Below, piece after piece: positions 11,433-40,911 of a stretch of DNA of 42,846 bases. The translations under genes were made by a program, and so were the position numbers. The DNA is taken from positions 1 through 42,846 of the forward strand of contig JAIQGA010000005.1 of NCBI GenBank assembly GCA_020072925.1, in the 5' to 3' direction. Origin of the DNA: Terriglobia bacterium. Its GTDB lineage: Bacteria; Acidobacteriota; Terriglobia; UBA7540. The number at the start of each line of letters is the position of its first letter. The stretch's first letter is position 1. The notes under the pieces are model-generated. The model did not search any database, had not been told where the DNA came from, and was given only the letters and a program-made list of their open reading frames with translations.

Positions 11433-11451
11433 GTCTCACCGTTGAAATGGC

Positions 11452-12939: not shown

Positions 12940-12959
12940 TCGATTATCGTAACATTGCT

Positions 12960-13018
12960 TCGGGATTCCGGATTTCCCGAGTCCCTAATCACGAGTCCCG
13001 AGTCACGGGTCCCGAGGA
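12960..13018. repeat. short imperfect repeats of a CGAGTCCC-like unit
   Basis: Between the GH59 stop and the TPR gene, GAGTCCC/GGGTCCC units occur at least three times in tandem, interleaved with CACG. TCACGAGTCCCGAGTCACG is nearly palindromic. This may be a small intergenic repeat or a stem-loop that shapes the operon transcript. Confidence 0.35.
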
Positions 13019-15010: not shown

Positions 15011-15056
15011 GGTTGTGATTCCTCCTCTTCTGCGTGGCGCGGATAAGAAACGGCGC

Positions 15057-16478: not shown

Positions 16479-16491
16479 GAGTGGTTGCTTT

Positions 16492-17733
16492 TCACCTACA
16501 GGGTGGGATGACGGCCTGCAAACTGCCGAGTAAGGTCATCCCCGTACCGGACTCTTCCGGGACCGCGGGCCCATTCCAGGAAGTGTTGAGGACGCCATAG
16601 GTCTCCTCGGCGCCGAAGGTGCGCGTTGTGCCGGCCGCCTCGGTCCCGTTGAGGGCCCAGTAGCACCAATCCATATCACTTTGCCGCAGATATTGCAGAA
16701 AACTGGTAAACCAGAAACCCTGGGAGCCCGCCGCCGTATCCTGAAAGCAGGAGACGTGGGTGTGGCAAGTCCCGAATTCGCCGACCCAAACGGGAGCGGC
16801 TTCACTTTGGGTGAGGATGTAACCCCAGGACTGATTCAGTTGCTGCTGCATCTGGCTGAAGCTGGAGAGCCCGCTGTGAAACCAGGCGTAGTTGTGCGCG
16901 GAATAAACGACATGATTCGGTATGTTCAAAACGATGGGCGACTGCGCCACGCCGGTCAAATCCGAGGCATAGTTTAGCCCCTCGACGATCACAAGCAGGT
17001 TCGGATTGGCGCTGAGGATGGCATTGCCCGCGCGTTGGGCCGCGGCGTGCCAGTCGTACTGCGGGTTGCCGCCCCAGGTGGCCCCGGAACGAAGTTCGTT
17101 GCGCAAGTCGGCCGCGATGACCGCGGGCTGAGACTTGTAACGCTCCGCCATGCCCTGCCAGTCGGCAACCCAGTTTTTCTCCGGGTATTGGGCGTTGTAC
17201 CAGAGTCCGTTGCCGTCGTTCTCGGTGCAGCACCAGTCGGCGTTGCTCATGTGGTTATCCAGGATAACCAGCAGGCCTTGAGCGGCCAGCGCGTTGACTA
17301 CGGCGTCAAAAACTTCCATGGCGTGCAGGCCCTTAAGTTGTGGATTGGCCGCCACCACCGCATCGCCGACCAGTGGGTTGCTTTCGTAGAGCTCGTTGGA
17401 CCACGGCAGCCGCACGGAATTGAATCCCAGGCGCTTGATTTGCGCGGCGATATCATCCACCGTCGCCAGATCGAGGCCGGCCGCCACGAAGTCCTTTTCC
17501 TCGGCGCCGTACCAGTTCACACCCGCCAATTTCACGCGCTGGTTATTGTGATCTAAAATCCACCGCCCTTGAGTGTGCAGCGGAAAGGCGGGTGTAACGG
17601 CCGGCGGCGGGCAATTCAGTTGGCTGTGGTTCGTTTTTCTGTAGGTGACTGTGCAAGCTCCGCACAACAAGGCCAGCACGGCCAACAGGGTTTTCATCAG
17701 CCGTGCAGAGCGTTGGGGATCAGATTCAATCAA
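16492..17733 (-). CDS. GH5-family glycoside hydrolase, probable lipoprotein (413 aa)
   Basis: The GH5 TIM barrel runs from about 55 to 400: VKLAGVNWYGAEEKDF, FNSVRLPWSNELYESNP, LLVILDNHMSNADWCC, then the acid/base Glu213 in DLRNE and the nucleophile Glu319 in WVGEFG. The cysteine-rich DNHMSNADWCC resembles a GH5 group also found in plants and fungi. Activity could be beta-glucosidase, endoglucanase or glycosphingolipid-active. The frame starts at a TTG (17733) with GAGGT eight bases upstream. An ATG at 17697, giving MKTLLAVLALLCGAC, is the alternative and makes a neater lipoprotein signal, but no ribosome-binding site precedes it. It follows the receptor gene after a hairpin (17810-17836). 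Confidence 0.88.
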   Translation of the reverse strand: MIESDPQRSARLMKTLLAVLALLCGACTVTYRKTNHSQLNCPPPAVTPAFPLHTQGRWILDHNNQRVKLAGVNWYGAEEKDFVAAGLDLATVDDIAAQIKRLGFNSVRLPWSNELYESNPLVGDAVVAANPQLKGLHAMEVFDAVVNALAAQGLLVILDNHMSNADWCCTENDGNGLWYNAQYPEKNWVADWQGMAERYKSQPAVIAADLRNELRSGATWGGNPQYDWHAAAQRAGNAILSANPNLLVIVEGLNYASDLTGVAQSPIVLNIPNHVVYSAHNYAWFHSGLSSFSQMQQQLNQSWGYILTQSEAAPVWVGEFGTCHTHVSCFQDTAAGSQGFWFTSFLQYLRQSDMDWCYWALNGTEAAGTTRTFGAEETYGVLNTSWNGPAVPEESGTGMTLLGSLQAVIPPCR

Positions 17734-17809
17734 GGAGGGCTACCTCAATGCGATTTCTAGGGTGGGATTTCCTTGACACGCTTGTCCAAGCCAGTAACCC
17801 TGAAACTAC

Positions 17810-17836
17810 GGGGAGGGACGTGCCGCGTCCCTCCCC
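17810..17836. terminator. 11-bp GC-rich hairpin after the TonB-receptor gene
   Basis: GGGGAGGGACG at 17810-17820 and CGTCCCTCCCC at 17826-17836 form a perfect stem with a five-base loop, 28 bases beyond the receptor stop. There is no long T-run on the minus strand, so it is more likely an attenuating or RNA-stabilising hairpin that sets a higher dose of receptor than of the downstream hydrolases. It could also be a factor-assisted terminator. Confidence 0.6.
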
Positions 17837-17864
17837 CAAGTCTCGCAAGGCGACAATTCAAGAG

Positions 17865-20800
17865 TTACCAGTAGAACTTCAAGGCGAGTTGGATCTCTCG
17901 TGGGATCCCGCGCGTGCCATTGATCACGCCGAAGTTCTGGAGGTCCGTATAGTTCGAGCTCTTGAAACTATTCCCGAAATTGGGGTGATTGAGGAAGTTG
18001 AAGAATTCGCTGCGGAATTCCAAGTGAGTGGTCTCGGAGGTTCGGAAATCCTTGAAGAGCGAAAAGTCGAAGTTGTTGAAACTCGGTCCGTGGATCTGGA
18101 AGGGCCTGCCTCCCAGCGGTGCGAAATCGGTCTGGCCGACCGTGGTTGCCACCGGGGGGTTGGCAAAGGCCGCGGGATTCATGAACTGGTTGATGCCATG
18201 CGGGCCCAGTTGCGTATAGAGGGCCTGGCCCGGAACCAGGAAGGCAACGCAGTTGTTGCCGGAGGGGAGGGCATTTGTAGTGATAGCGCAGCCGATATTG
18301 AACGGAAAACCATTCTGGAGGGTTAGAATCCACTGGGTATTCCATCCTCCAATCACGTGGTTGACAGGGCCGGACACGTTCCCTCCAAAATGCTTGCCTT
18401 TCCCAAACGGGAGTTGGTAGATCCCGCTGGCGTGGAAGATCTGGGGAACATCGGAGCCGCAGAAATGGTAGTCCTTCTTGATGCCGAAGCCCGGAATGGT
18501 AGATGCTCGGTAAAAGAAACCATCGCCGAAGCTACCCAGGATATTCTTGTCCGTCGTCATGCAATGCGCATAAGTGTAATCAGCCAGGACGGTCAATCCC
18601 TGGCTCATTCTTCGCGTGTACGAGAATTGCAGGCCGTTATACCAGGCATCCGCGTTGGGAGCCACGTAGTCGCTGTTCTGCTGAAAGTCCGGGAAGGGTA
18701 TGTAATCCTTCACAGGTGTGTTGGGGGGAAGGAGCACATTCGGAACATTGCGCTTGTCCCCACTCAACATGTGGCGAGTGGAATTCCCGACATAACCCAG
18801 CGAGACGGTCTGATTCGGGGTGAATTGGTATTCGAGCGTGAAATTCCATTCCTGCGTGTAGGCCGTCTTCCAGGGCTGTTGATAGCCCACCAGACCTAGT
18901 CCACTCGCGCTGAAGCTCGGGCTGTCTGAGGTCGGGACGATTGACAGCAGGCCGCGTTCGAGTGTCGCATGCTGGCCGTCGGAATATACGATAGGAGAAA
19001 CGTCATTGTTCCGGAAGGCAGATAGATTGACGGCGAAGGGGTAATTGTAGCCGGGGTCGGGAGCGCCGCCGACGTTTTCAAATCCTCCATAAAAGATGCC
19101 GTACGCGGCACGCATCACCAACTTTGGTGTAGGCGAGTAGGCCAAACCTACACGGGGAGCGAAGTTGGTGAGCGGAGTATTGGTCAGGCCCGCCTCCGTA
19201 CTATAGACGAGCTTGATCCCATCCTGGGCGAGGAGCGAGGTAAAAGACGGAGAGAGCGGCGTGGTTTTACGATTAATCAGGTACGCGGCGTTCCCTCCGG
19301 GGGTTCCGGGAACAAAGTTGGCCTGCGCCCCATATTTTTCGCGAATCTGGCCAAAGAACTCCCAGCGCAAGCCGAGGTTCACGGTGAGTTTCGGAGTTAC
19401 TTTCCAGTCATCCTGGAAGTAGGTGCCGTAGTAGTGGCGAATATCGTCGATGTTGCTGATGTTGGAGGCAAACACCCCATTTGGCCCCCCGACGTTGTCG
19501 ACACCGCCAGGCACGGTGGAGGCGATCGGGGTCAAGAGCAGATCCGCCATGCCCGTGGTTGGGCCGCCCACGCCGGGAATCCCCGTATAACCGCCAAAGT
19601 CGAATTCCCCGCGCGACCAGGCCGGATCAATCCAGGGGAAGCGGACGGACTGATACTCAAATCCGCCCTTGAAGGTGTGCGAGCCGTAAATCTTGGTCAA
19701 GTTCTCCGTGAACTGCGTGGTGTTGCTGATTCGGCCGTTGGGGCTGGCAAAGGCGCCTGCGCCAAGGCCGGTAAGCCCGCTGATCGAGATGGTCGGCAAT
19801 CCCCCGTTCTGATTTCCCTGTGGAACGCCCGGAATGCCGAACTGCTCAGGCACGCCTGGGGTGTTGGCATAGGGGGGCTGGGATGTGGTTCGCAGACGGC
19901 TGAACCCGAACCGGGCCTCATTGATCATTGTCGGCGTGAAGGAGTGGGTTTCGCTGAAAGCCAGATTCAGCGACATGTCATTGAAGTCGCCCCCGCCGAA
20001 GGGGGGGTTAGTCCCGAGACCCGTAAAGTCGCCGGGAATGTTGGCGTGCCGTTTGCTGTAGCTGGCCCGGCCAAACATCTGGTCGCGATCGCTGAAATTG
20101 TGGTCCACGCGGACATCGAAGTGATTGTTATCGTCAGGCTGGCTGAAGTTGGCCGCGTAATCATTGTAGAACGTTCCCTGCAGGTTGGCGTCCGGATAGA
20201 GGTTCAGCAACTTGATGGCGTTGGAGTCAAGCCGACCCTGCGGAAGTTGGTTTAGGTAAGCCATCTGCGCGGCACTGGTGAAGTCGGTAACGCCCGTCAG
20301 ACTAGCGCCAGTATAAAACGGATCCCGAACGTACCCGTTCGCCGTGGCCGTCAGCCCGGTCTCGGGATCGACCTGGCCGGCCGCGACTTGGCGTGTCGTG
20401 GCAGGGTCGAAGATCGTCGTCGCCGGGAACGTCCGGCCCAGCGCGTCCTGGCGTGTGCCGGTGACCAGGGTCAGCAGATCCTGGAAGTTCGTGTAGCCGC
20501 TGGCCCGCTCAGCCCCTGTCGGAACCGTAGGATTGTGGAAAGAGGTCTGGCGAATTCGCGTGCCTTCGTAGTCCCCAAAGAAAAATGTCTTGTTCCTGCC
20601 ATCGTAGACATGAGGGATGACGATCGGTCCGCCCACGGAGGCGCCAAACTGATTTTGCCGCAAGGTGCTTTTCTGTACCCCCGCCGCGTTCTGGAAGAAA
20701 TAGGCCGAATCGAGTTTGTCATTGCGGAGAAATTCCCAGGCGCTGCCGTGAATCTTGTTGGTGCCGGACTTGATCGTCGCGTTCAGCACCGCTCCGCCGG

Positions 20801-21527
20801 CGCGGCCAAACTCCGCGCTGAAATTGCCGGTCTGGAGCTTGAATTCCTGAATCGCGTCCGGGGGAGGCAAATTCACGTAGGAGGCGCCATTCAGGAAATC
20901 CACCGTATCGTTGTTGTTGTCAATCCCATCGAGGATGTAGTTGTTGTGGACCGTGGTCAATCCGTTAGCCACAAAACTCCCCGTCAGGTCCATATTGCGC
21001 GAAGGGTTAATGCTCGTGACCCCGGCCGAGAGTTGGGCGAGAAATGTATAGTTGCGGCCGTTCAAGGGCAGGTCCAGGATCTCGCGCGTGCTCGCCACCA
21101 TCCCCACCGAGGCATTTTGGGTCTGGAGTTGCGGCGGCGCACCCGTCACCTCGACAACCTGGGTCAGCGCCCCGGGAACCAGGGTAAGATCAACGACGAC
21201 CTGCTGCTGAACGTTGACGGTGACATGGCTTTGGATCGCCTTACTGAAGCCCGACATCTCGACTTCAACGCTATAAGTCCCAATCCTGATTGGAGTGAAA
21301 ATGTAGCTGCCGTCATTGGTGGTTGTGGTGGTGAGGGCAAGGCCCGTGCCCTCGTTGGTGAGTGTAACCTTGGCGCCTGGCACGACGGCACCTGACTGGT
21401 CTTTGATGGTGCCCAGCACAGTTCCGGTGTCCACTTGGGAAAAAGCCGGAACCGCTGTGACCAGGATGGCCGCCCAGAGCACAAAGATCGAAACACTCCT
21501 GATATGTCTCCAAGGCTTCCGTGTCAT
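17865..21527 (-). CDS. TonB-dependent receptor with carboxypeptidase-regulatory-like N-terminus (1220 aa)
   Basis: A signal peptide ends near residue 30 (AVPAFSQ). A carboxypeptidase-regulatory-like Ig domain follows at about 35-115 (GTIKDQSGAVVPGAKVTLTN). The plug lies at about 125-260 (STREILDLPLNGRNY, NNYILDGIDNNND, EFKLQTGNFSAEFGRAGGA), and a 22-strand-type barrel ends in the aromatic LALKFYW. This Oar-like architecture is the expanded TonB receptor type of Acidobacteriota, used for oligosaccharide uptake through the outer membrane. There is no adjacent SusD gene, as is usual in this phylum. It diverges from a LacI-family gene and precedes GH5, a sugar transporter, GH59 and GH2 on the same strand, so it is likely the uptake gate of that locus. 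GGGAGCGG precedes the ATG. Confidence 0.93.
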   Translation of the reverse strand: MTRKPWRHIRSVSIFVLWAAILVTAVPAFSQVDTGTVLGTIKDQSGAVVPGAKVTLTNEGTGLALTTTTTNDGSYIFTPIRIGTYSVEVEMSGFSKAIQSHVTVNVQQQVVVDLTLVPGALTQVVEVTGAPPQLQTQNASVGMVASTREILDLPLNGRNYTFLAQLSAGVTSINPSRNMDLTGSFVANGLTTVHNNYILDGIDNNNDTVDFLNGASYVNLPPPDAIQEFKLQTGNFSAEFGRAGGAVLNATIKSGTNKIHGSAWEFLRNDKLDSAYFFQNAAGVQKSTLRQNQFGASVGGPIVIPHVYDGRNKTFFFGDYEGTRIRQTSFHNPTVPTGAERASGYTNFQDLLTLVTGTRQDALGRTFPATTIFDPATTRQVAAGQVDPETGLTATANGYVRDPFYTGASLTGVTDFTSAAQMAYLNQLPQGRLDSNAIKLLNLYPDANLQGTFYNDYAANFSQPDDNNHFDVRVDHNFSDRDQMFGRASYSKRHANIPGDFTGLGTNPPFGGGDFNDMSLNLAFSETHSFTPTMINEARFGFSRLRTTSQPPYANTPGVPEQFGIPGVPQGNQNGGLPTISISGLTGLGAGAFASPNGRISNTTQFTENLTKIYGSHTFKGGFEYQSVRFPWIDPAWSRGEFDFGGYTGIPGVGGPTTGMADLLLTPIASTVPGGVDNVGGPNGVFASNISNIDDIRHYYGTYFQDDWKVTPKLTVNLGLRWEFFGQIREKYGAQANFVPGTPGGNAAYLINRKTTPLSPSFTSLLAQDGIKLVYSTEAGLTNTPLTNFAPRVGLAYSPTPKLVMRAAYGIFYGGFENVGGAPDPGYNYPFAVNLSAFRNNDVSPIVYSDGQHATLERGLLSIVPTSDSPSFSASGLGLVGYQQPWKTAYTQEWNFTLEYQFTPNQTVSLGYVGNSTRHMLSGDKRNVPNVLLPPNTPVKDYIPFPDFQQNSDYVAPNADAWYNGLQFSYTRRMSQGLTVLADYTYAHCMTTDKNILGSFGDGFFYRASTIPGFGIKKDYHFCGSDVPQIFHASGIYQLPFGKGKHFGGNVSGPVNHVIGGWNTQWILTLQNGFPFNIGCAITTNALPSGNNCVAFLVPGQALYTQLGPHGINQFMNPAAFANPPVATTVGQTDFAPLGGRPFQIHGPSFNNFDFSLFKDFRTSETTHLEFRSEFFNFLNHPNFGNSFKSSNYTDLQNFGVINGTRGIPREIQLALKFYW

Positions 21528-21652
21528 AATCCCGCTCCCTTCGTAAACACGAATTTCCTACCAAGGAAGTTGCCGTAGCAGGGACCCGAGAACCCGACGC
21601 GAAGGAGTTAGCTCTGATGCCAAGAGTAAAGCAGCACTACAAAGTACGACCA

Positions 21653-21690
21653 GTGCACGCACACGTTATCGTGCACGTGCACGCACGTTA
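21653..21690. promoter_or_regulatory. candidate LacI-family operator cluster
   Basis: CGTGCACGTGCACG at 21670-21683 is a perfect 14-bp palindrome with a central CG, the hallmark of LacI-family operators. It is embedded in two direct repeats, GTGCACGCACACGTTA at 21653-21668 and GTGCACGCACGTTA at 21677-21690, offset by 24 bases. It lies 143 bases from the receptor start and 267 bases from the LacI-type gene start, so it can serve both. A second small inverted repeat, CTAGG-GAAAA-CCTAG, is at 21732-21746. Confidence 0.6.
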
Positions 21691-21949
21691 CGCCTCCAAC
21701 TCCTGTAAGTCAAGGGCAAAGTTTGAATCTACTAGGGAAAACCTAGAATTATTGTAGTATGCACAAACTGTCCATCCGGAATTCTTGCGCCCGATTCGTT
21801 GGGCACCCATATGGAAGGAGACTTCGAAAACATACCCGGTGCGGGCAGCGGCGCTACAGCGATTGCGCTTGACAGGGTGGGATTTCATGGGGCATGTATT
21901 CAGCACGCGAGCCCGGATTACGACCCTTCTGCCAGGAGAGGAGATTGCA

Positions 21950-23077
21950 GTGCCCGCTAAAGACTCGAGAAGGGCTTCACGCAGACGTGCCGAGCAGATT
22001 GGAGTGCAGGGCATTGCGGACGCGTTGGGTATCTCGCGCGGGACCGTGGATCGTGCCCTGCACAACCGAGGCGGGGTTAATCCGCGCACCAAGCGTCGAG
22101 TTCTCCGCGCTGCCCAGAGGCTTGGATACCGGCCCAATCTCGCCGCCCGCTATTTATCTTCCAAGAGGAGCCTCACCATCGGCATCGCCCTGCCGTTGGA
22201 GGTCGCTTTCTTTTACGACGACATTCGGGAAGGTATCTTCGAGGCCGCGAGCGTGTACGAACCCTTGGGCGTCAAAATCCTCCACCGGACCTACAAGAGG
22301 TTCGGCGAGCATGAAATCGACGCCGTCCGCGATGTCTTGCAGGAGGACATTCGGGGATTGGTGATTTCACCGGCCTACCCGAACCGCCTCCGGCCTTATA
22401 TCGACGAGGCCGCCAGCCGGAATATCCCCGTAGTATGCGTGGCCACGGACGCGCCGGAAACAAAACGCCTCACCACGGTATCGGTGGACCCGCTGGTATG
22501 CGGAGCGCTGGCGGGAGAGCTCATGGGGTATTTTCTTCATGCGGGCGGAAACGTCGTGGTCTTTATCGGGATGCACGCCACCGTGGATCACGAGCAGAAG
22601 CTGCGAGGTTTTCGGTCGAGCCTTCGCGAGTTTTGCCCCGAGGGAAAGATTGCAGCCGTCGTCGAAACGCATGATGAAGCCATGGAGGCATACCAGAAAT
22701 GCCGGGACATTCTGCAACAGCAACAGCCTGTCGCGGGTATCTACGTCAGCACGGCGAATTCCATGCCGGTCCTCCGCGCTCTGGAAGAATTGGGTTTGAC
22801 GGGAAAGGTCAAGGTCATCTGCACGGATCTTTTCCCCGCGCTGTTATCTCACATCAAGTCAGGCGCGGTGGCCGCGACCATTCACCAGCGGCCGCGGGAA
22901 CAGGGGCGCGCGGCGTTCCGCACGCTGGTTCGGTATCTGACGGAAGGGATCACTCCCGAGCCCGGGATATCTCTGAATCCCGCCGTGGTCATGCGGAGCA
23001 ATCTCGAATTGTTCACCGTTAACGGGACTTCCAGGTCGGCGCTGGTCTCGCAGGACGCGTGGGGGCCAGGCCGGTAG
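21950..23077 (+). CDS. LacI-family transcriptional regulator (375 aa)
   Basis: The DNA-binding domain lies at about residues 15-65: GVQGIADALGISRGTVDRAL then GGVNPRTKRRVLRAAQRLGY, with hinge-like PNLAARYLSSKRSL. The remainder is a periplasmic-binding-protein-like sugar sensor (TIGIALPLEVAFFYDDIREG, GLVISPAYPNRLRPYIDEAA, GVYVSTANSMPVLRAL-like strands). The start is a GTG at 21950 preceded by AGGAGAGGAG. The open frame extends 55 codons upstream to 21785, but that part is unlike the family and the ribosome-binding site fits the GTG. It diverges from the TonB-receptor operon. It ends 17 bases from the convergent TPR gene. Confidence 0.9.
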   Translation: MPAKDSRRASRRRAEQIGVQGIADALGISRGTVDRALHNRGGVNPRTKRRVLRAAQRLGYRPNLAARYLSSKRSLTIGIALPLEVAFFYDDIREGIFEAASVYEPLGVKILHRTYKRFGEHEIDAVRDVLQEDIRGLVISPAYPNRLRPYIDEAASRNIPVVCVATDAPETKRLTTVSVDPLVCGALAGELMGYFLHAGGNVVVFIGMHATVDHEQKLRGFRSSLREFCPEGKIAAVVETHDEAMEAYQKCRDILQQQQPVAGIYVSTANSMPVLRALEELGLTGKVKVICTDLFPALLSHIKSGAVAATIHQRPREQGRAAFRTLVRYLTEGITPEPGISLNPAVVMRSNLELFTVNGTSRSALVSQDAWGPGR

Positions 23078-30224: not shown

Positions 30225-32660
30225 TCACTCGTACCTCAGCGCTTCCATAGGTTCTACCTTTGTGGCCCGGCGCGCAGGGATGTAGCACGCGACGAGTGAC
30301 ACCAAACACAGCAATCAGGCTACCGCAGCATAGGTGAGCGTGTCGGTCGAGGTGACACCGAAGAGCTCGCTGCTCAGATATCTCGTCAGCCCCAGCGAAA
30401 CAGCCAGACCCGTGGCCAGGCCGGTCAGCGTCAAAAGCAGACCTTGGCCCAGCACCAGCCGGAAAATACTCATTCGCTGTGCACCCAGCGCCATGCGAAT
30501 GGCAATCTCATGCGTCCGCTGGCGAGTCGTATAAGCGATCACTCCGTAAATGCCCCCGGCCGCCAGGATGAGCGCCAGCAAACCAAAGGCGCCAGCGAAG
30601 GTTCCGGCGAGACGCTCGAAAATACTTCCCAACTGCATGCTGGAATTGAGAGTGGTCACGCCGAAGACGGGCAGATCGGCATTGAGTTCGTGGACAGTTC
30701 TTTCCACTGCTGCGGCGTAAGCCTGCGGATCGCCCGAAACCCGCGCGTGGATGATCACCGGATCACGGTAGTTCTGGTATACCGGCAGAAAAATGATAGG
30801 GTCCGGAGTATAGATCAGGCGGCGGTACTTGCCGTTGCGAGCCACGCCCACCACCGTGAACCACTGGCCATTGGTGTTGACCCTCTTGCCGATGGCGTCC
30901 TGGCCCGGCCAGTATCGGTCGCAGAATTCCTGATTAACGACGGCGACCGGCTGCGACTTGGGGCCATCCTGCCCGGTAAAGTCACGCCCTGCGATGAGGG
31001 GAATCCGCATGGCCCGGAAGTAATTGGGGCCCACGTTGGCCCGATCGATTTCCATCGATTCGTGGAGCTGGGGGACGTAGCCATCCGGAGTGACATAGGC
31101 CGTATGGAGAGTGAAGCTGAGCGGCGAGAAATCCGCCACGGTCGCGGAATCGACGCCGGGAAGGGCCTCAAGTTTCGAGAGCACTTGGCGGTGGAACGCG
31201 ATGCCTTGCGCTTCCGAATAGCCGGCGGGCCTGAGCTCATAGGCAGCCAGCAGAACATGGTTGGGGTCGAAGCCGGGATCCTGGCGTTGGGCGTTCCTCA
31301 AACTGCGGGTGAACAAACCTGCACAAACTAACAGAAGCAGCGATAAGCCAATTTGCGCCACCACCAGCAGGCTGGAAAGCCGCGACTTGTGGGGTCCGCC
31401 GGACATGGTGCCCGTTTCTTCCTTCAGTGCCGCGATGGGGGCCAGGCTGGAGGCCCGCAGCGCGGGGAGGATGCCAAAAATAGTGGCGGTAAGAATGGCC
31501 AGGGCCATGGTCGCGAGGAGCACGGTGTGGTCCGCATTTCCGTTGAGGGTAAAGTTGAGGGTAAGAGGAAGGGTCGTGGGCGGAATGAAAGCCGCAACCG
31601 TCCCGGCCGTCCAGGTGGTGAGCAACATGGCGAGTCCGCCGCCTGCCAAAGCCAGCAGGAGACTTTCCACCAGGAGCTGACGCACCAACCGCCAGCGACT
31701 GGCGCCGAGTGACAAGCGCAGGGCGACCTCACGCCGGCGAGTCACGTTGCGTACCAAAAGCAAGTTCGCCACATTCGCGCAGGCCAGCAACAGCAACACT
31801 GCCGCTAGCGCTAGAAGTATGGGCAGGCTCTTGTACAAATAGACATTCACTCCAATGGGCGAGCGCCAGAGCGGGTCCAGCGTGATCTGATTGGGGCCGC
31901 GGTGCGAATTGGGAAACTGTGCGACGATGCGCTGCATCTGGAGATTGAGTTCTTCCTCGGCCTGCCGGCGGCTAACCCCGGGCTTGAGCCTTCCGAAAAC
32001 GTTGAGCCAGTAACTGCCGCGTTCATGAACCTCCTCTCCCCTGTAAACCAAGGAAGCCCAAAGGTCCACTCGCGAACCGGTCGAACATCCCTGGAAACCC
32101 GGAGGTGCTACTCCCACAACCGTGCACAGGCTCTTGTTGATCTCGATCGTCTTGCCGACAATCGAGCGGTCCCCTCCGAAATGGGTCTGCCACAGGGCAT
32201 AACTGATCACGACGGACGGCGTCGTTCCAGGCTTTTCCTCTTCCACCGGCAGGAGGCCGCGGCCCAGGATGGGTTGCAAGCCGAGCACTTTGAAATAATC
32301 CGCGGAGGTTAACGCCGCGTTGATGCGCTCCGGCTTCCCCGTGCCGGTGAGGGACACGAAATCTTCGTTATACGCCAGCAGGCCGGACAAGCTCTGGGTT
32401 CTGGCGCGCAGGTCCGCGTAGTCCGGGTAGGAGAACGGCGGGGTGGGGTGCTCGCTGATCTCCCCCCTGATCACGGCAACCATGTCGCTGGTGCGGGAGA
32501 CTCCCGGAATGGGAGTGAGGAGCGTGGAGTTAATCCAACTGAGGATGGTGCTGTTCGCAGCCATGCCCAGCGCCAGCATCAGGACCACGAGGAAAGTAAA
32601 GCCAGGACTCTTCGCCAGCATGCGCAGGCCAAAGCGAACGTCTTGCAGCAATGTTTGCAT
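30225..32660 (-). pseudogene. ADOP-type MacB/FtsX permease with an in-frame stop before its last helix
   Basis: The gene has the full ADOP layout: the N-terminal QDVRFGLRMLAKSPGFT, helix 1, a MacB-type periplasmic domain, an FtsX core (LLLACANVANLLLVRNVTRR, REVALRLSLGASR), a second periplasmic domain and a second FtsX core (GVIAYTTRQRTHEIAIRMAL). An in-frame TGA at 30315-30317 stops translation at TYAAVA. Beyond it the same frame continues for 29 codons, including SLVACYIPARRATKVEPMEA and a final LRYE, to a natural TGA at 30225-30227, exactly the family C-terminus. A stop gained from one base change is therefore likely. The truncated product, 781 aa, lacks the last helix. The start is ATG 32660 after GAGGA; a TTG sits at 32663. 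Confidence 0.8.
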
Positions 32661-32775
32661 CAAAGGAGTCCTCTACATACTGTTAGTGCAATTTTATATC
32701 CACCTTTGATGCAGATAAGCCCATTAGAAACAAGCTGGTGCGAAGCCGGGGCATGCTAAGCCTGGTCAGTCACTG

Positions 32776-32840: not shown

Positions 32841-33442
32841 TCATGCGGCACTACTTGCCGCTCGTCCCGTCTCACTGTGCCTGTCCAATACTGCAATTAG
32901 ACCAGGCAGGGCGCGATGCCCAACAATGCGACGAAACTGGCCTTCCGCCACGACTAAACCAGAACCCACCCAGCGTTCGAGATGATCGCCAGGCCGCCAT
33001 CGCTTTACGTTTCGGCAAGCCACCCGGAGGATGGTGAAGACCGACTCAATCGGATTCGTGCTGCGCAGCGTCCGACGCAGCTCCGGCGACGCCTTCAACC
33101 GATGCAGCGTGAGCGTTTCCTCTAGCCCTTCCGCCAAGCTGCGTGCCGCACTGGGGTTCACCTCCCGGAGTTCGCGTTGAATTCGTTCCAATTTCATCTC
33201 CCCGCGTTGGCCGCGCACCCGTGGCCTGTGAATAGGTAGCTTCTGACCGTGAACCACGACCGAACCGCCGACGCGGCCCCAACGTCAAAGTTCCCGGTCG
33301 TGTCGCCCTGCGTGTGGGTTGCCGGTCAGCAAGCCACCTCGTCGTCCATAATCATCAATAGCAGTCGCTTCTCGGCTTCGTGGAGGAGCTGGGAGACTCC
33401 TTGCTGGAGCAACTGAGCAATTTCAGCGAGGGAAAGGACCAT
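32841..33442 (-). mobile_element. degraded IS256-family transposase remnant
   Basis: The C-terminal portion is unmistakable: SLAEGLEETLTLHRL, then ELRRTLRSTNPIESVFTILR and NVKRWRPGDHLERWVGSGL. The N-terminal portion reads MVLSLAEIAQLLQQGVSQLL and LLLMIMDDEVAC, then after a one-base frame break LTGNPHAGRHDREL, a stop, and GGSVVVHGQKLPIHRPRVRG. The two portions are joined directly at RGQRGE-MKLERIQREL, so the central DDE-bearing part is deleted. At least three lesions make it inactive. Its upstream end runs into the last codons of the large gene at 33355. No terminal inverted repeats were identified. Confidence 0.82.
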
Positions 33443-36306
33443 TTGGATGGTGCCGGGATCGTTCGACTGGAGACCTTCTCGGGCTCCCATTCCACTCGCA
33501 CCACGACCCCATCTGCGTCGTTGGGAAATTGCAGGAGTACCGAATCTCCCTCGGTGTGAGAAGTGATGGGGACCGATGCGCCCAGCACCGTGAACGCCTT
33601 CACGTTTTTGGGGCGGCGTTGGCCTGCCCAGATTCGGGCCGCGCCCTCTGTCTGAGAGGGGGCCTGCGCCAGGAAAGAGGTTATTTGCGCCCCCTGATAG
33701 TAGGCCCGGAGGCGGCCCGACACCGCCAGGATACGGGGAGCCCCCACTGGCCGTCCCGCCTCCGCCAGGAAGGCGCATTCGCGCGCCGGAATTGTATAGT
33801 TCTCCACTACCCGCAGGCTCGGGCTGAACAGGTCGACGAAACGGCCTTGCACCTTGTAGGCCTTATCCAAGGTGCGAATGGCCATGTAAGGACCTCGCCG
33901 GACCAGGAAGTAAGGTTGCTCCCGGTAGTTCTCACCTGCCTTCCCAAGTGCGTACTTCACCAGCATGCGCAGCCATCTCGACCCTGGGTCGGTATTAAGG
34001 AAACCGGGTTCCACGCCAACATAAACTGCCGTCCCCTTGCCCACCGACGCTTCCCAGACGGCAGGCACCGACTCCCCTTCCATCCGATAGAGCGACCTCC
34101 CCCCAGGAGGCGGTTTGTACAGGGTCACCGGATAGGTTCGCCGAGGCTCCCGTGATGTTGCTTCTTCTAATAAGTGGCCCAGAGAAAGTTCTCGACGGTA
34201 GTCTTCTTCACCCGATGACGGGCCAAGCGGAACGCAGAGGCGCGCCAAGTTCGAGTCGAATTCAGGGCTGGTGGCATCGAGGCATGCATCCCTACCAGGA
34301 TTGGAAAGAACCTTTGCCGCCTGAATCGGCAGGCCCATTTGCGCGAACAAGGCTTCACCGGGGGAGGCCAACCCGATCCGCCGCCACCAGGACTCAGAGA
34401 CCGCGTTGTAAGCGTCCGTGCCCCCGAAAAACACCAGCGTCCCGCCACGCCGCGTCCAGTCGGCCAGGGCGCGGTTTTGGCTCGCATCCGTCGGTTTGAG
34501 AAAATCGTACGAGGCGAGCAAGACTTTAGCCGACTCCAAATAGCCCGGCTCCGTCACACGGTCCAATGAGAGCACGTCCACAGGTACTCCCTGGCGCACG
34601 AGCGGTCGCGACAGACCAAAGAAGCCGTCGAAATCGCTGGGAGACGGCTCGGCGCGCTGCCACCCCATCGAATCTGCGATGAAGGTGCCGATCCCGCGGC
34701 TGCCTGCTTCCACTTCCCCCCTCGGATACCTCCAGAACTCGCTCAGGGCACCCGTCACTGTGTTAATTAACGTCTCATATTCTTTGGGAACATGCCCGTA
34801 GATTCGGTTCGGCCAGATCAGTGGCTCAAAGGTGTCCACCTGCGGGTACATCAGCGCCGCCAATACGTTGTCCCCGTAGCTGTGTCGATAGAAGTCCAGG
34901 GACATCGCGGGACTGTCACCCCAGGGGTCCATCATGAACCAGAGGCGCCTGCGTGTGCCGCGCACCAATTGATAAAAGGAGGAGTATTCCAAGTAGCCCA
35001 CCTCAAATGGTTGGTTCCAAACCTCGGCGACCACTTCCTGCAAGGCGGGAATGTCGACCAGACTATGATGTGGCGTCGCCATCCGAATAAGGTAATAATT
35101 GATTGGGCTGTGCATTGCGAGCATGCGCGTCGCGGAAGGCTTCCGCTGCTGTACGGCCGTCAGGATCTCCTCCACCCAGCGCCGCATTAGGAACGCTTTG
35201 AGTTGCTCGGACTTGTAGCGTGCGTCCACGCTTCTATGAGGTGGTTCCCAAGGCATGCCGTATCTTGCCTTCCACTCCTGCTTAAAGGCTTCCGAATAGC
35301 CTGCCTGAGCCCAGATTTCGGGTTCGTCAAAGCAGAATCCAGTGGCGCCTGCGTCTAAGGGCCTGGTGTAATATTGCGTGGCGACATCAATCCTTGCCTG
35401 CGTTGGCACCTTATAGTAGTCAGTGGCCTCAATGCTGATGCCATCGCCGTGCCGTTTCACCATAGCGGCCTTCAGCTCTCGGGTCAGCGCCCCCACAGCC
35501 ATATCAATGGGATTGCCGTCGCGCTTCACCTCCATAACGACCAAGGGATTACCGTTCCGATCGGTCTGATTCTCTTCGGCACGATCGCGGATTTCCCGCC
35601 CGTAGCGACTGTGGAGGAATGTTTGCGTCTTAAACCCTTTCTCGGCCCAGCTTGAGTACACGTTGAAATCCGTGGCAGGCGTCCATAGATAGAGCTGAAC
35701 GGCATCGGCCGGCACGGCCATACGCGGGTCACACGGCTCGGCGAAAAAGAAACCGGTGTGTGGTTCATCGGGACGCGGAATAACGGTGCAACGCTCGCCG
35801 CTGCGCAAACCCATCATGGTCTCTACCGCGTCGCTCACGCCGTCTCCGTGGCGGTCTGGAAGGGCCAAGGTCAGCTTCACCTGGCAAACCGAAATAGGTC
35901 CGCCTCGAGCACGGAATTGAAATCGTAGCTCCCCGCCAAGCGGATGGTTCGACGGAATCGTCGCATGAAGCGTGTACTTCGTTCCGTCTTTCTCCATGCG
36001 AGTCGTCACTGGCTTAGCGTCCGACGAGGTGACGGTTACCTCCGTGGCCCCTTCCGCATCAAAGGTCAGCGTACACTCCGCCTGCGGAGGCACCACAACC
36101 CGATACGTCCAACCCCCGCCCGCCGTCGCTCGGCGCGCCCCTCTCTCAACTGAACTGCCGAAATCCTCCATCACAGCGCTAGCCTCTGCAGGCGTGCCGG
36201 GTACCAGGAAAACCGTTTGGCGGACCTCCCCGCGCAACGACGCCGTGATCCACGGACAACAAACAATCACGAGCAGAACTAGTGCAGTTCTGGGGTGCTC
36301 TTTCAT
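33355..36306 (-). CDS. large secreted glycosidase-like protein with beta-galactosidase trimerisation-type domain (983 aa)
   Basis: A signal peptide (ALVLLVIVCCPWITASLRG) precedes a beta-rich domain and a calcium-loop-like DRHGDGVSDAVE at residues 151-162. A TIM-barrel-like middle follows (VQLYLWTPATDFNVYSSWAE, GFCFDEPEIWAQAGYSEAFK, DPWGDSPAMSL). A Rossmann-like module (VLLASYDFLKPTDASQNRAL, GGTLVFFGGTDAYN) then resembles the trimerisation domain of GH42-type beta-galactosidases. I cannot assign a GH family with confidence. The ATG at 36306 follows AAGGA; a start ten codons earlier is less likely. The last 30 or so codons (after VEWEPEK) overlap the IS256 remnant in another frame, so the original C-terminus was probably replaced by insertion. 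Confidence 0.7.
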   Translation of the reverse strand: MKEHPRTALVLLVIVCCPWITASLRGEVRQTVFLVPGTPAEASAVMEDFGSSVERGARRATAGGGWTYRVVVPPQAECTLTFDAEGATEVTVTSSDAKPVTTRMEKDGTKYTLHATIPSNHPLGGELRFQFRARGGPISVCQVKLTLALPDRHGDGVSDAVETMMGLRSGERCTVIPRPDEPHTGFFFAEPCDPRMAVPADAVQLYLWTPATDFNVYSSWAEKGFKTQTFLHSRYGREIRDRAEENQTDRNGNPLVVMEVKRDGNPIDMAVGALTRELKAAMVKRHGDGISIEATDYYKVPTQARIDVATQYYTRPLDAGATGFCFDEPEIWAQAGYSEAFKQEWKARYGMPWEPPHRSVDARYKSEQLKAFLMRRWVEEILTAVQQRKPSATRMLAMHSPINYYLIRMATPHHSLVDIPALQEVVAEVWNQPFEVGYLEYSSFYQLVRGTRRRLWFMMDPWGDSPAMSLDFYRHSYGDNVLAALMYPQVDTFEPLIWPNRIYGHVPKEYETLINTVTGALSEFWRYPRGEVEAGSRGIGTFIADSMGWQRAEPSPSDFDGFFGLSRPLVRQGVPVDVLSLDRVTEPGYLESAKVLLASYDFLKPTDASQNRALADWTRRGGTLVFFGGTDAYNAVSESWWRRIGLASPGEALFAQMGLPIQAAKVLSNPGRDACLDATSPEFDSNLARLCVPLGPSSGEEDYRRELSLGHLLEEATSREPRRTYPVTLYKPPPGGRSLYRMEGESVPAVWEASVGKGTAVYVGVEPGFLNTDPGSRWLRMLVKYALGKAGENYREQPYFLVRRGPYMAIRTLDKAYKVQGRFVDLFSPSLRVVENYTIPARECAFLAEAGRPVGAPRILAVSGRLRAYYQGAQITSFLAQAPSQTEGAARIWAGQRRPKNVKAFTVLGASVPITSHTEGDSVLLQFPNDADGVVVRVEWEPEKVSSRTIPAPSKWSFPSLKLLSCSSKESPSSSTKPRSDCY

Positions 36307-36697
36307 GAATGTCCTTGGATGTCTGTTTTCTCCCAACCTGCCTCCTGACTCTAGATATCAAATCCCAATACAAGTGCAAACCAACCCGACGCCAGCGGAT
36401 TACGGCTTCGGGCCTGACCACGATGAGGCACTGCTTCCGACCGGACCAGATTCGACGAGCAACCACCAGAAAAGCCTGTCAAACGAGCCAAGGCTGGTTC
36501 GCGGAGGGCGCCGTTTCAGTACCGCAAGGTGTTGCAGTTACACGAGGTCTTCGAGGAGAAGAATCCGTGAGCCAGAGGAACGCCGCAGTAGGGCCAGAAG
36601 CTACTCCCCCTGAATCGGTTGGCGTCTTCAGGAATCACGGCGCCTTCCCCCGATTGCAGCTAAGCGCCTCCCAAGAATTTCACAGCTTAGGCCAGAC
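36307..36697. other. 391-base intergenic leader of the large glycosidase-like gene
   Basis: The two minus-strand genes on either side are separated by this stretch. Open frames on the plus strand here are antisense chance frames. Apart from the AAGGA ribosome-binding site just upstream of 36306, I see no convincing promoter or hairpin. Confidence 0.4.
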
Positions 36698-39370
36698 TCA
36701 CTTCGGATTCTGCGGTTGCTCTTTCTTGCCAGACTCGACCCAGACTTGCCGTGACGCATCCAAATTCCGCCACTGTTTTCGCGCTCGAATCAGATCGAGC
36801 TTGAGCGTGACGATCTCATGCGGCCGAAGCTTGAGTCTCAGGGATTCGTGCTCCGGGTTTAAGCGTGAAATGATATCGCCCAGGAGATCGACCTTCGCCG
36901 CGGTAGCAACCTCACCCCAGGATACAAGTTGGACATTCGCAGGTCTGCCGTCCGCCTCATAAACTCTGAGCGTTGGGGAGCCATCGTTTTCCCGGTAGAA
37001 TGCCGAAAGAATCACGTTCGGGGCGTCTAGCTTCAGAAAGGACTCGCTCGGCGGAAGGTTCGGCTTCTCGGCCTGCTCGCCGGAGATGACCGCCAGCAAC
37101 GGCCGGTTGAAATCGAGGCCGGCTCTGAGCCGGTCATGATGCGCGTAACCGGAGTGCGGGATAAAGGCAAAACCCATTGACTGCGTGTGCGCCCAGTAAG
37201 ACTCGTCCCAGGCATCGTACATCGAGAGCACCTGCCGGTACCCATTCTCAGCGCCGAAAAAGCCTTCATTGCCGCCGTGGACCAGCAGTAGTCCACGGTG
37301 GTCGTCCTCCAGGTCGACGAGGTTGAGCCCGGTAAAAGGCGCCTTGATTTCTTCGAAGAATTGCTTCGAGGTCATCCAGTCGCCGGTGGGGTACTTCTTC
37401 TGATAAACACCGCGCGGATGTACCACGCTGACCGCGAAGGGATAGTCGGAATAGATTTGAGGGGCGTCAAGCCGGGGGACCACGCGATGTTGAAGAGAAT
37501 CAGCTAGCGTCGGATCGAGCCGCTGGTCAAGGAACAGTTTTGGGTGGACCTCCAGACGTCCTAACCCGGCGATCACCCGCACCTCCGTTTCGAATCGGAC
37601 GCCTTCGGCCAAGTGGCCGCGAATGACCGCGCTCGCGATGACGGGGCCCTGCTCGCCAGGTTCAACGGATTCAATCCCCTCGGTCGAGTTGCGCATCGTT
37701 TCGCCCACGCGTGCCGTGAGCGCGAGAAGCGGCCGCGACGGATCTACAAAATCCTGGGGGTCGCCCCGACGCCGCAAGGAAACGATCGTCCCATGATATC
37801 GGTCGATTATTGCCGAGATCGTGCCATCGTCGAGGACGATCTTATCTTTCTGGGTGATCAGGCTCGCCGTCGCCTCCGCAGAGGCATGATCGGCCACTGG
37901 GGCGTCGCTGAGTTCGTAGGATTTGTATCCAACGGAAGGCACATCCTCAGCGACGAAAGCTAGCTGCGCTGAACCGTCTGCCGCCTTTAGCAACTGCGAG
38001 GGCACTGGCTTCCCTTGGGTGTCAACGATGTGCGTTGACTGCCCTCCACTCCAGGGCACGGTCACCAGATCTCGCCTCGAGTGCCCCAGGGAATTGAAAA
38101 CCACCACGAGGCGATCGTTCTGCGGGTCGCGCTTTGGCAGCGCAATGTGCCGGGCGATATGGTGCAGGTTATTGTCGAGGACCCGCTGTGCCAGGACCTG
38201 GGCCTGATGCATGTAGCTCTCCCCGACTGAGCCGCAAAGCGCTTCACACTCGTCAACATCGTGGCCTTCGCCGATCAACAAGTCTCGCCAGGCTTCTTCC
38301 AGGTCCCAGGAAGGATAAACGTCCCACTGCGCATAAGGGCGGCCAAGCATTCCGCCCACCAAGGCGAAAGTCTCGGCGTCAAGGATGAGTCCTTCCGTCT
38401 GCCGGTTCATCCGCCGGATTCGGTCGCCGTTTTTACCGATGGACATGCCATGGAAGACGTCGTCGAGGCTGTATTGCACGGTTCTCAGCGACTGTGGCTT
38501 GAAGAGCGAAAGGTACTCGGAAAGCGTAACGGCTTGGACTTTGAGGTCGCGTCGCTGGGAGAACTCGCGAAATTGCGGCGCCATCAGTTCGCTGCGGCAC
38601 ATCCAATCCTTGCTCGGCATCAACTCTAGCCACTGGACAACCAATGGCCGCTCGAGCGCGCGAACCTCTGGTTGCTTAAGGACTTCCGCCCAACGCTCCG
38701 GCCACTGGTGGATTTGGAGTGGCGTGCGCGGTACCGCGACCAGTTTCGACCCATCGACGCCTTCCCACAGGATGGCTTCGTCCTTTTCAAAGGGCACGAA
38801 AGGTGTATGCCAGGTCCATTGGAAGAATAGACAAGCGTTGTGAAAGCCCGACAGCCGGAGGATTTGTGGCAACTGGGGAAAGAAATCAAATTCCTCTTCC
38901 CACCAGGTGCGGGGGCGGCGTCCGAAAAGCCGCTCCACTGCCCGAACCCCATATATACGCTGGCGGACATTCGACTCACCCTCGACGAAAAGCCCATAAG
39001 GTTGCCCATACGAGGCGCCGACTACTTCGATCTGTCCGCGGCGAATATAATCCCGCAGGCGTTCCAGCACCCGCGGAGCCTGCTCGGCCAGCTTCTCGTA
39101 CCCCACGCCGTCGAAGTTCAACTCACCGCGCGCTCCAGTCGTATCGACCAGTCGCATCATGTCCTCGGCGGAGCTCGGCAGGACTTGATCACCCCAGTTC
39201 CAAGCCATATCGACCCAGTGCATATGATTGCCGAAAGTAAAGTAAACGACCTTGGGTGCTGTGCTGGTGGTGCGGACAGAGCTTCGGATTGCCGGATTGC
39301 CCTGCGCAACGAGCAGTGCAGGTAGTACTAGCAACAATACAAGGGAGTGAAAGAATCGGACGTACCTCAT
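36698..39370 (-). CDS. secreted GH38-like alpha-mannosidase-type protein (890 aa)
   Basis: A signal peptide covers residues 1-22 (LVLLLVLPALLVAQG). The N-terminal domain follows GH38: YFTFGNHMHWVDMAWNWG at the first metal-binding strand, VVGASYGQPYGLFVEGESNV, then EEEFDFFPQLPQILRLSGF. In canonical GH38 enzymes the first motif is HxHxD and the nucleophile is Asp in WxxDxFG. Here the first motif has one extra residue (H51-W-V-D54) and the nucleophile position is apparently Glu159. The helical middle and large beta C-terminal domain are present. The 890-residue length is normal for the family. GAGGGGAC precedes the ATG. It diverges from an MFS gene with a 16-bp inverted repeat between them. Confidence 0.8.
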   Translation of the reverse strand: MRYVRFFHSLVLLLVLPALLVAQGNPAIRSSVRTTSTAPKVVYFTFGNHMHWVDMAWNWGDQVLPSSAEDMMRLVDTTGARGELNFDGVGYEKLAEQAPRVLERLRDYIRRGQIEVVGASYGQPYGLFVEGESNVRQRIYGVRAVERLFGRRPRTWWEEEFDFFPQLPQILRLSGFHNACLFFQWTWHTPFVPFEKDEAILWEGVDGSKLVAVPRTPLQIHQWPERWAEVLKQPEVRALERPLVVQWLELMPSKDWMCRSELMAPQFREFSQRRDLKVQAVTLSEYLSLFKPQSLRTVQYSLDDVFHGMSIGKNGDRIRRMNRQTEGLILDAETFALVGGMLGRPYAQWDVYPSWDLEEAWRDLLIGEGHDVDECEALCGSVGESYMHQAQVLAQRVLDNNLHHIARHIALPKRDPQNDRLVVVFNSLGHSRRDLVTVPWSGGQSTHIVDTQGKPVPSQLLKAADGSAQLAFVAEDVPSVGYKSYELSDAPVADHASAEATASLITQKDKIVLDDGTISAIIDRYHGTIVSLRRRGDPQDFVDPSRPLLALTARVGETMRNSTEGIESVEPGEQGPVIASAVIRGHLAEGVRFETEVRVIAGLGRLEVHPKLFLDQRLDPTLADSLQHRVVPRLDAPQIYSDYPFAVSVVHPRGVYQKKYPTGDWMTSKQFFEEIKAPFTGLNLVDLEDDHRGLLLVHGGNEGFFGAENGYRQVLSMYDAWDESYWAHTQSMGFAFIPHSGYAHHDRLRAGLDFNRPLLAVISGEQAEKPNLPPSESFLKLDAPNVILSAFYRENDGSPTLRVYEADGRPANVQLVSWGEVATAAKVDLLGDIISRLNPEHESLRLKLRPHEIVTLKLDLIRARKQWRNLDASRQVWVESGKKEQPQNPK

Positions 39371-39463: not shown

Positions 39464-39624
39464 TTAGCTGAGTTATCGTGTACCGCTTTACTGTACCAGC
39501 CTCGGCATGATCTATCGGCCGTTCATGGGGGAAGGCTTTACGAGTGATTTTCTGGGCCGTGAGGAACGGTTGGGTATTGGCAATGCTACCCGGCGAGCCC
39601 CGTGGGCAAAGTGAGAGCCAAGAT

Positions 39625-40911
39625 ATGATTGATCGTGGACGTAGTCACGTACGCTGGTTTCTTGTGGTGTGGATGTTCGTGGTCAGCGCGGTCGCGTATC
39701 TCGATCGTGTCAACATTTCGATCGCGGGCAACGCCATCGCCACGCAGTTCCATCTGAACGACGTTCATCTAGGGTGGATCTTCGGCTCCTTCGTCCTGGC
39801 TTATGCCATCTTTCAAGCGCCCGGCGGCAGCCTTGCCGACCGCCTCGGCGCGCGTTGGGTCCTCAGCGCCGGCGTGCTCTGGTGGAGCGTCTTTACTTCA
39901 CTCACAGCCCTCGTGCCTTCGGAAATCCGGGGAGCCGTCCTGATCTTCATTGCGGTCCGATTTCTGCTGGGCGCCGGTGAGGCAGTTGTCTATCCCGCCT
40001 CCAATCGTATGGTTGCCAATTGGATTCCCAGCGACGAGCGTGGAATTGCGAACGGCCTGATCTTCGCCGGCGTGGGGGCCGGCGCCGGAATTACCCCGCC
40101 CCTGGTCTCTTACATCATGGTTCACTATGGCTGGCGTTGGTGTTTCTATGGCAGCGCCCTAATCGGTTTGGCCGTGGGAGCGGTCTGGCTACTGTTGGCC
40201 CGAGATGATCCGGATCGGCATCCCTGGGTATCGCCGTCAGAGCTGACCCTGATCCGCTCGGGGCTCGGCGAAGAACCAACCCGGCACGTCGCCTCAACTC
40301 CTTGGCGGGCCTTACTAAGGAGCAAGGATCTCGTCGCCGTAACGCTGAGCTACTTCTGCTACGGTTATGTCGCCTATATCTTCTTTACCTGGTTCTTTAT
40401 TTATCTGACCAGGGTCCGTGGCCTGGACTTGAAATCCGGATCCAATTACACGATGCTGCCGTTTCTCGCCATGGCGGTTTGCTCACCAGTAGGAGGGATT
40501 GTCGCTGACTGGCTCACCCGGCGATACAGTAAACGCGTGGGGCGGTGCGGGATTGCGATCTTCGGGATCAGCCTGGCTGCAATCTTCATCGTTTTGGGAG
40601 CCCGAGCACACAGCCCTCAGCTTGCCAGTGTTATGCTCGCTGGAGGTGTGGGTGCGCTTTACCTCTCGCAGAGCTCTTTCTGGTCTGTCACTGCTGATGT
40701 TGCCGGACCTTGGGCGGGAACTGTATCCGGCACGATGAACATGGGTGGCCAGTTCGGAGGAGCTTTGACCGCTGTTCTAACCCCCGCCATCGCTACCCAC
40801 TTCGGGTGGACTGCCTCTTTCTTGGTCGCGGCCGGGGTCTGTTTCCTGGGCTCTGTGCTTTGGCTATTGGTGGATCCCAACCGAAAACTGGGTCGAGATC
40901 AGTCCGCGTAG
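39625..40911 (+). CDS. ACS-family MFS transporter, hexuronate/aldarate type (428 aa)
   Basis: Twelve hydrophobic segments are predicted, with the anion:cation symporter signatures: RWFLVVWMFVVSAVAYLDRV in helix 1, ADRLGARWVL in loop 2-3 and RFLLGAGEAVVYPASNRMVA in helix 4, then WIPSDERGIANG and GWRWCFYGSALIG. This matches ExuT/GudP-type permeases for hexuronates, glucarate or similar sugar acids. The ATG at 39625 begins just before helix 1 and gives the usual length. The frame opens at 39544, but that part is not like the family; the ribosome-binding site is weak in both cases. The gene converges on the URO-D-family gene with 40 bases between stops. Confidence 0.87.
   Translation: MIDRGRSHVRWFLVVWMFVVSAVAYLDRVNISIAGNAIATQFHLNDVHLGWIFGSFVLAYAIFQAPGGSLADRLGARWVLSAGVLWWSVFTSLTALVPSEIRGAVLIFIAVRFLLGAGEAVVYPASNRMVANWIPSDERGIANGLIFAGVGAGAGITPPLVSYIMVHYGWRWCFYGSALIGLAVGAVWLLLARDDPDRHPWVSPSELTLIRSGLGEEPTRHVASTPWRALLRSKDLVAVTLSYFCYGYVAYIFFTWFFIYLTRVRGLDLKSGSNYTMLPFLAMAVCSPVGGIVADWLTRRYSKRVGRCGIAIFGISLAAIFIVLGARAHSPQLASVMLAGGVGALYLSQSSFWSVTADVAGPWAGTVSGTMNMGGQFGGALTAVLTPAIATHFGWTASFLVAAGVCFLGSVLWLLVDPNRKLGRDQSA

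Follow-up and report, generated by a model that had tools for sequence, protein, structure and literature searches.

A GH38-like protein from a Terriglobia bacterium in a Glu-type sister clade with a candidate glutamate nucleophile and an altered zinc motif

The stretch of DNA analysed here (hereafter the window; 42,846 nucleotides) carries a gene for an 890-residue protein that is placed by sequence comparison in a separate Glu-type sister clade of the Asp-type GH38 enzymes. The reading we favour, with slightly more confidence than doubt, is that the protein is a retaining glycosidase with GH38 architecture, in which Glu160 would serve as the nucleophile and Glu249 as the acid/base, and in which the zinc site is altered. 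Glycoside hydrolase families normally retain their catalytic carboxylates. The features of the gene and its product are as follows.

36698..39370, minus strand: gene for the 890-aa Glu-type GH38-like protein, ATG start (ORF, Pfam, full-length GH38 fold)
39302..39370, minus strand: signal-peptide-like N-terminus, residues 1-23 (sequence)
38432..39265, minus strand: alpha/beta-barrel catalytic domain, about residues 36-313 (AlphaFold DSSP, VIA, Pfam)
39209..39229, minus strand: N48-H49-x-H51-W-V-D54, corresponding to the HxHxD metal motif of GH38 with one residue more (alignments)
38864..38905, minus strand: nucleophile motif W156-W157-E158-E159-E160-F-D-F-F-P-Q-L-P-Q169 (sequence, alignments)
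38891..38893, minus strand: Glu160 codon, best candidate nucleophile (register, invariance, GH57 alignment)
38624..38626, minus strand: Glu249 codon, candidate general acid/base, Asp in GH38 (conservation, one profile alignment)
38234..38263, minus strand: H370-D371-x-x-E-C375-E-x-x-C379, the GH38 His-Asp with clade-typical Cys (alignments)
38150..38431, minus strand: helical middle domain, about residues 314-407 (AlphaFold; Alpha-mann_mid below cut-off in Pfam)
36788..38122, minus strand: GH38-type C-terminal beta-sandwich domains, about residues 417-861 (GH38C2 in Pfam, AlphaFold, VIA)

The two motifs discussed below are NHMHWVD (residues 48-54) and TWWEEEFDFFPQLPQ (residues 155-169). In Pfam, the protein matches GH38N with 57.6 bits (cut-off 25) over residues 91-212 only, GH57 with 39.7 bits (cut-off 21.2) over residues 84-179, and GH38C2 with 34.1 bits (cut-off 22). 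The sole NCBIfam match is NF007331, mannosylglycerate hydrolase, with 32.5 bits over residues 98-213. An AlphaFold model computed with 49 family sequences reached a pLDDT of 89.9 and a pTM of 0.91, and its comparison with the PDB by VIA identified Schizosaccharomyces pombe Ams1 (6lz1; Z 29.6, rmsd 2.9 Å, 722 residues aligned, 19% identity), a match to which Foldseek assigned an E of 5.8e-38. The GH57 structure 1k1x appeared further down the VIA list (Z 19.6, rmsd 15.9). Likewise, a PDB sequence search placed Ams1-type alpha-mannosidases on top and a GH57 glucanotransferase lower. The alpha/beta barrel, helical bundle and beta-sandwich domains of GH38 are all present in the model (AlphaFold, VIA), and since it matches GH38 enzymes over nearly the full length, the protein is predicted to have the GH38 domain plan minus the N-terminal extensions of Ams1. 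The full-length fold and the homologues also rule out a chance or mis-framed open reading frame. A phage origin was dropped, as PHROGs gave no match, and the plasmid records gave no match over 80% of the query.

The family was sampled in two ways. A pattern search of genome contigs returned 63 loci, labeled Armatimonadota, Planctomycetota, Chloroflexota and others; the patterns included NHMHWVDM and WWEEEFDF, and the 63 loci are hence biased to those motifs. Because of this bias, a second sampling was made with an HMM built from 49 sequences (48 of the 63 pattern-found loci and the window protein). Within the window's own phylum, one of 297 genomes matched at E<=1e-60, namely the window's genome itself. 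The phylum of an Armatimonadota record (L066) yielded matches in 41 of 251 genomes at E<=1e-20 and that of a Planctomycetota record (L043) in 6 of 246, some of these 41 and 6 belonging to divergent subgroups (see below). From the Armatimonadota sampling, 30 loci and 11 regions covering all 41 matching genomes were used. Ten genomes behind chosen loci gave one HMM match each at E<=1e-15. Three Glu-type copies (the window protein, L002 and L003) are found among the 19 GH38N matches of the window's genome. Several of the 19 matches cluster on two contigs, C347 and C55, and so many in a 6.5 Mb genome suggest that GH38-like genes have been greatly expanded.

Alignment of the divergent matches revealed four subgroups, here named I-IV. 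Besides the window protein, 63 pattern-found and 17 HMM-found distinct cores belong to subgroup I, 4 to II, 4 to III, and 7 to IV; these counts refer to distinct cores (102 of 130 rows) in a set where near relatives remain, and rows outside the five subgroup lists (canonical GH38, fragments) are left out of them. In a full-length tree of 41 hand-picked rows, three of which have long branches, a split supported at 100/100 separates 14 canonical GH38 rows from the 27 of Glu type, and subgroup I nests with II, then with III, then with IV. On this evidence, the window protein sits in a separate Glu-type sister clade of Asp-type GH38. A search of the open-access literature found no description of this clade. 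The window motifs are kept in all 63 pattern-found loci and all 17 distinct HMM-found sequences, the neighboring V53 and F161 each differing in one HMM-found sequence, and their conservation is far above chance. A signal-peptide-like start was found by a crude hydrophobicity count in one of the 61 subgroup-I proteins examined, the window protein, which suggests that most relatives in this subgroup are probably cytoplasmic.

Several further features of the subgroups were observed. Cys375 (38246-38248) occurs in every sequence of subgroups I-III that covers the position and, in the MAFFT alignment, in 5 of 7 of subgroup IV, and is absent from the canonical GH38 rows shown; Cys258 and Cys379 are likewise invariant in subgroup I in the family alignment. 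Subgroup IV (L136-L141 and L130) keeps Glu160 and mostly keeps the His-Asp pair, with no clear HxH, and at E 0.001 one of its members (L136) matches neither GH38N nor GH57.

The preliminary description of this protein had offered two readings, a branch related to GH38 that differs in mechanism or specificity, or a non-catalytic sugar binder. The different mechanism is supported, as a reading, by a clade that is free of the Asp, invariant in Glu and split from canonical GH38 at 100/100. The second, a degenerate GH38 scaffold with a sugar-binding or regulatory role, would accord with the missing canonical nucleophile Asp and the altered HxHxD. We consider it very improbable, as Glu158-160, Glu249, His49, His51, His370, and Asp371 are conserved in subgroup I where covered (61-63 of 63, and 17 of 17), and numerous invariant acidic and His residues in a catalytic domain found over several phyla are unlike a decayed active site.

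The same description had Glu159 in the place of the nucleophile Asp. The replacement itself is borne out: a canonical Asp was looked for in the alignments and none stands at that position, which corresponds to D402 of SpAms1 and is occupied by Glu in the window protein as well as in 95/95 other clade sequences counted. The residue is probably Glu160 and not Glu159, a conclusion that draws on the secondary-structure register, the invariance over all subgroups, and an ungapped alignment with GH57. From the preceding helix to that of PQLPQ, the Glu-type branch is one residue shorter than canonical GH38; anchoring the alignment on PQLPQ, to the right, leads to Glu159, and anchoring it on the helix and strand (FW) leads to Glu160. 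The structural comparison confirmed the likeness to GH38 by the full-length match to Ams1, and the helix and strand register gives Glu160 instead of the residue first named. In the window model, the helix spans residues 131-149, the strand 155-156, and the following helix starts at 167 (AlphaFold), and in a canonical GH38 fragment modelled likewise (L178) the corresponding elements are 111-129, 135-137, and from 148, with Asp140 in WLPDVF as the nucleophile. The offset between the two is thus 20 across helix and strand and 19 afterwards, which indicates a one-residue deletion behind the nucleophile and a match of Glu160 to Asp140.

The conservation pattern leads to the same residue. Glu160 is Glu in 63/63 and 17/17 sequences of subgroup I, 4/4 of II, 4/4 of III, and 7/7 of IV. 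Glu159, the conservation of which was raised at the outset, is indeed invariant throughout subgroups I-III and is changed in 7/7 of subgroup IV, to Gln (4) or Ser (3). Subgroup IV could itself be non-catalytic, and its weight for Glu160 would then drop. The 109-column alignment of a subgroup-I profile with L160, a GH57 protein, is free of gaps and sets Glu160 on the Glu of GLWLTER (W-x-x-E); a profile of subgroups II and III was ungapped at the nucleophile site as well, with the Glu160 position again on the GH57 Glu. The canonical GH38 profile required a one-residue gap just after the Asp motif in the same comparison. The gap pattern recurred with 25 GH57 sequences, where Glu160 falls on the GH57 nucleophile Glu. 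Glu159 would be the nucleophile if the site were aligned from the PQLPQ side, where a gapless back-count ends on it, and phmmer also sets it opposite D402; HMMER and hhalign comparisons with GH38 placed the one-residue gap elsewhere within the motif, so that the exact partner of the GH38 Asp would be Glu159 or neither. Set against the constant offset of the strand and its preceding helix, the Gln or Ser of subgroup IV next to its invariant Glu160, and the gapless GH57 match, Glu159 as the nucleophile seems to us distinctly improbable despite its invariance in subgroups I-III. Collectively, the Glu160 register is well supported, short of proof.

The passages of the SpAms1 report used here (PMC7609781) give H290, D292, D402, and H615 as the zinc ligands, D402 as the proposed nucleophile, D493 as the acid/base, and D616 and W295 as residues that probably bind substrate. 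The HxHxD motif is absent from the Glu-type clade, which has HxHxxD in subgroup I only and HxHxxG or HxSxxG in II and III. The extra residue noted earlier in HMHWVD is real, as the His-Asp spacing is one residue longer than in HxHxD and the length is fixed across the Glu-type branch; the Asp it leads to is limited to subgroup I. Position 54 has Asp in 63/63 and 17/17 sequences of subgroup I and Gly, at equal length, in 4/4 of II and 4/4 of III, and in subgroup IV the region is unaligned in 6/7 and has Tyr in the seventh. His51 is replaced by Ser in subgroup III. Every covered sequence of subgroups I-III retains His370 and Asp371, as do the 5/7 of subgroup IV in which they are covered. The canonical GH38 zinc site (His-x-Asp, nucleophile Asp, His) is, judged from these alignments, lost in its normal form.

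The protein could nevertheless be a zinc-dependent GH38 alpha-mannosidase with a conservative Asp-to-Glu change, in which the zinc is held as in SpAms1 by His51, Asp54, His370, and the nucleophile Glu, and only side chain and loop length differ. In the phmmer alignment, H51, D54, and H370 stand opposite H290, D292, and H615 of SpAms1, with N48 and W52 as inserted window residues, and the conserved Trp57 and Asp371 pair with W295 and D616; taken alone, this pairing would mean a zinc site kept with stretched spacing, and the invariance of Asp54 in subgroup I is in line with it. The pairing requires, however, one residue inserted between His and Asp and another before His49, and Asp54 is Gly in all 8 sequences of II and III and not alignable as Asp in IV. 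Counted by hand on the full-length tree, Asp54 takes two changes if lost and regained, versus four if lost repeatedly. From these change counts and the Gly at the same length in the sister subgroups, Asp54 is probably a later gain, and we rate a conventional zinc enzyme of this kind as unlikely. As part of the altered site that we prefer, Asp54, new or displaced, may help to hold a metal in subgroup I.

For the acid/base, Glu249 is the best candidate. It is Glu, where covered, in 62/62 and 17/17 sequences of subgroup I, 4/4 of II, and 4/4 of III, and in 1/5 of IV. The profile of subgroups II and III sets Glu249 opposite the Asp of the canonical GDGGGG; other alignments, including the subgroup-I profile, show gaps or different residues at the GH38 acid/base Asp, and not Glu249.

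We propose that the enzyme would act by double displacement with retention, its target being a terminal sugar that is probably alpha-linked. Placed where a barrel strand ends, Glu160 would attack the anomeric carbon, with Glu249 acting as the acid/base and His49, His51, His370, Asp371, and Trp57 lining the -1 site. Glu160 would occupy the place of the GH38 Asp and of the GH57 Glu, with a loop of GH57 length behind it. Some sugar bond is thus probably cut differently than by GH38.

The relationship to GH57 was analysed by profiles and a further tree. The profile of subgroup I is weakly similar to GH57 (probability 62%, E 7.4e-5). The Pfam GH57 match was rejected as proof of kinship, since its cut-off is exceeded by 2 of 7 canonical GH38 fragments too, and the gap pattern and the Glu are used as the argument instead. 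Masking six or seven motif columns barely altered the GH57 scores, which indicates that the motif by itself does not account for the similarity. Over five 8-row subsets each, unmasked GH57 scores were 40.7-47.7 for subgroup I and 30.8-42.2 for canonical GH38, ranges that overlap, and against L160 alone the profile of II and III scored 61.3, canonical GH38 46.1, and subgroup I 36.8; given the overlap and this order, the scores do not rank nearness to GH57.

A 115-column tree with 10 GH57 rows recovered canonical GH38 (10 rows) and GH57 each as one group with strong support, and united the 24 Glu-type rows in 28% of bootstraps, with canonical GH38 placed among them; it rests on 44 hand-picked rows and a short alignment, and its bootstrap is not settled. 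Subgroup IV is split in this tree and united in the full-length one. If the rooting is right, Glu without zinc is the older state. It is possible, if somewhat doubtful, that the Glu-type clade survives from a stage between GH57 and GH38: the common ancestor would have had Glu and no metal, the Asp and zinc of the classical alpha-mannosidases would have arisen later on one branch, and subgroup I would have added Asp54 beside its His-x-His separately.

Beside the gene, the window contains two neighbors, given here as context.

39544..40911, plus strand: divergent MFS transporter, D-galactonate-transporter-like, adjoining the gene (Pfam, NCBIfam)
33355..36336, minus strand: 993-aa protein with no clear family, downstream on the same strand (sub-threshold DUF4350 in Pfam)

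For the 993-aa protein, a PDB sequence search at E 0.1 returned no match. Positions 9006-23077 hold genes for GH2, GH59, a sugar transporter, GH5, and a LacI regulator, together with a large outer-membrane beta-barrel with a carboxypeptidase-regulatory domain, and form a probable sugar-utilisation cluster. These genes at 9-23 kb and the MFS transporter adjacent to the window protein's gene make a role of the window protein in sugar catabolism plausible. At 30315-32663 lies an ADOP-family duplicated permease (TIGR03434, 833.8 bits), a family typical of Acidobacteriota and in keeping with the window being acidobacterial. Around the homologues, 94 flanking ORFs (the nearest of 200-900 aa on each side, picked crudely in GC-rich DNA, so that some are surely not genes) fell into 83 Pfam families with none dominant, GFO_IDH_MocA being found in 7 of the 94. 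A conserved operon was accordingly rejected as a substrate clue, and as the neighborhoods are not conserved, no substrate is claimed.

If true, a clade that combines the GH38 plan with a uniformly different nucleophile and a changed metal site would justify a CAZy family of its own, whose substrate would probably differ. A few purified proteins would then allow a direct test of the kinship of GH38 and GH57 and of the origin of the zinc dependence of alpha-mannosidases. Under automatic annotation, these proteins would probably be labeled as alpha-mannosidase or GH38, and the label may be wrong.

Among known systems, the protein is most readily compared with GH38 enzymes of the MAN2C1/Ams1 type (6lz1), with which it shares the barrel, the helical bundle, and the beta domains as well as H370-D371 and Trp57. 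In contrast to Ams1, it has Glu for Asp, a following loop shorter by one residue, an altered HxHxD, and no N-terminal extensions. Since neither the nucleophile Asp nor HxHxD is present, the window protein, on its sequence, lies outside GH38 in the strict sense. The similarity to E. coli-type mannosylglycerate hydrolase (NF007331) is distant, 32.5 bits being far under its cut-off of 1138 bits. With GH57 (4-alpha-glucanotransferase 1k1x; L160), the protein shares the W-x-x-E of the nucleophile, aligned without a gap and followed by a loop of equal length, and an H-x-H without the GH38 HxD spacing. The part of the GH57 literature that we draw on (PMC6616209) gives Glu as the nucleophile and Asp as the donor. 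The nucleophile Glu in W-x-x-E (CSR-3) is present in the window protein, the Trp place being read from GH57 sequences, and the region of the proton donor Asp (CSR-4) aligns unreliably with the window family. Unlike GH57, where the sequences show HxHQP, the window protein has HMHWV; the H-Q-P is the motif that we take to be CSR-1. It also differs from GH57 in its GH38C2 match and GH38-type beta domains, and GH57 enzymes are not known to carry C-terminal domains of the GH38 type. The fold match to 1k1x is poorer as well (rmsd 15.9). With HQP and the GH57 domain plan both absent, the protein lies outside GH57 too, and we class the window family as a sister family, related to GH38, whose nucleophile position is of the GH57 type.
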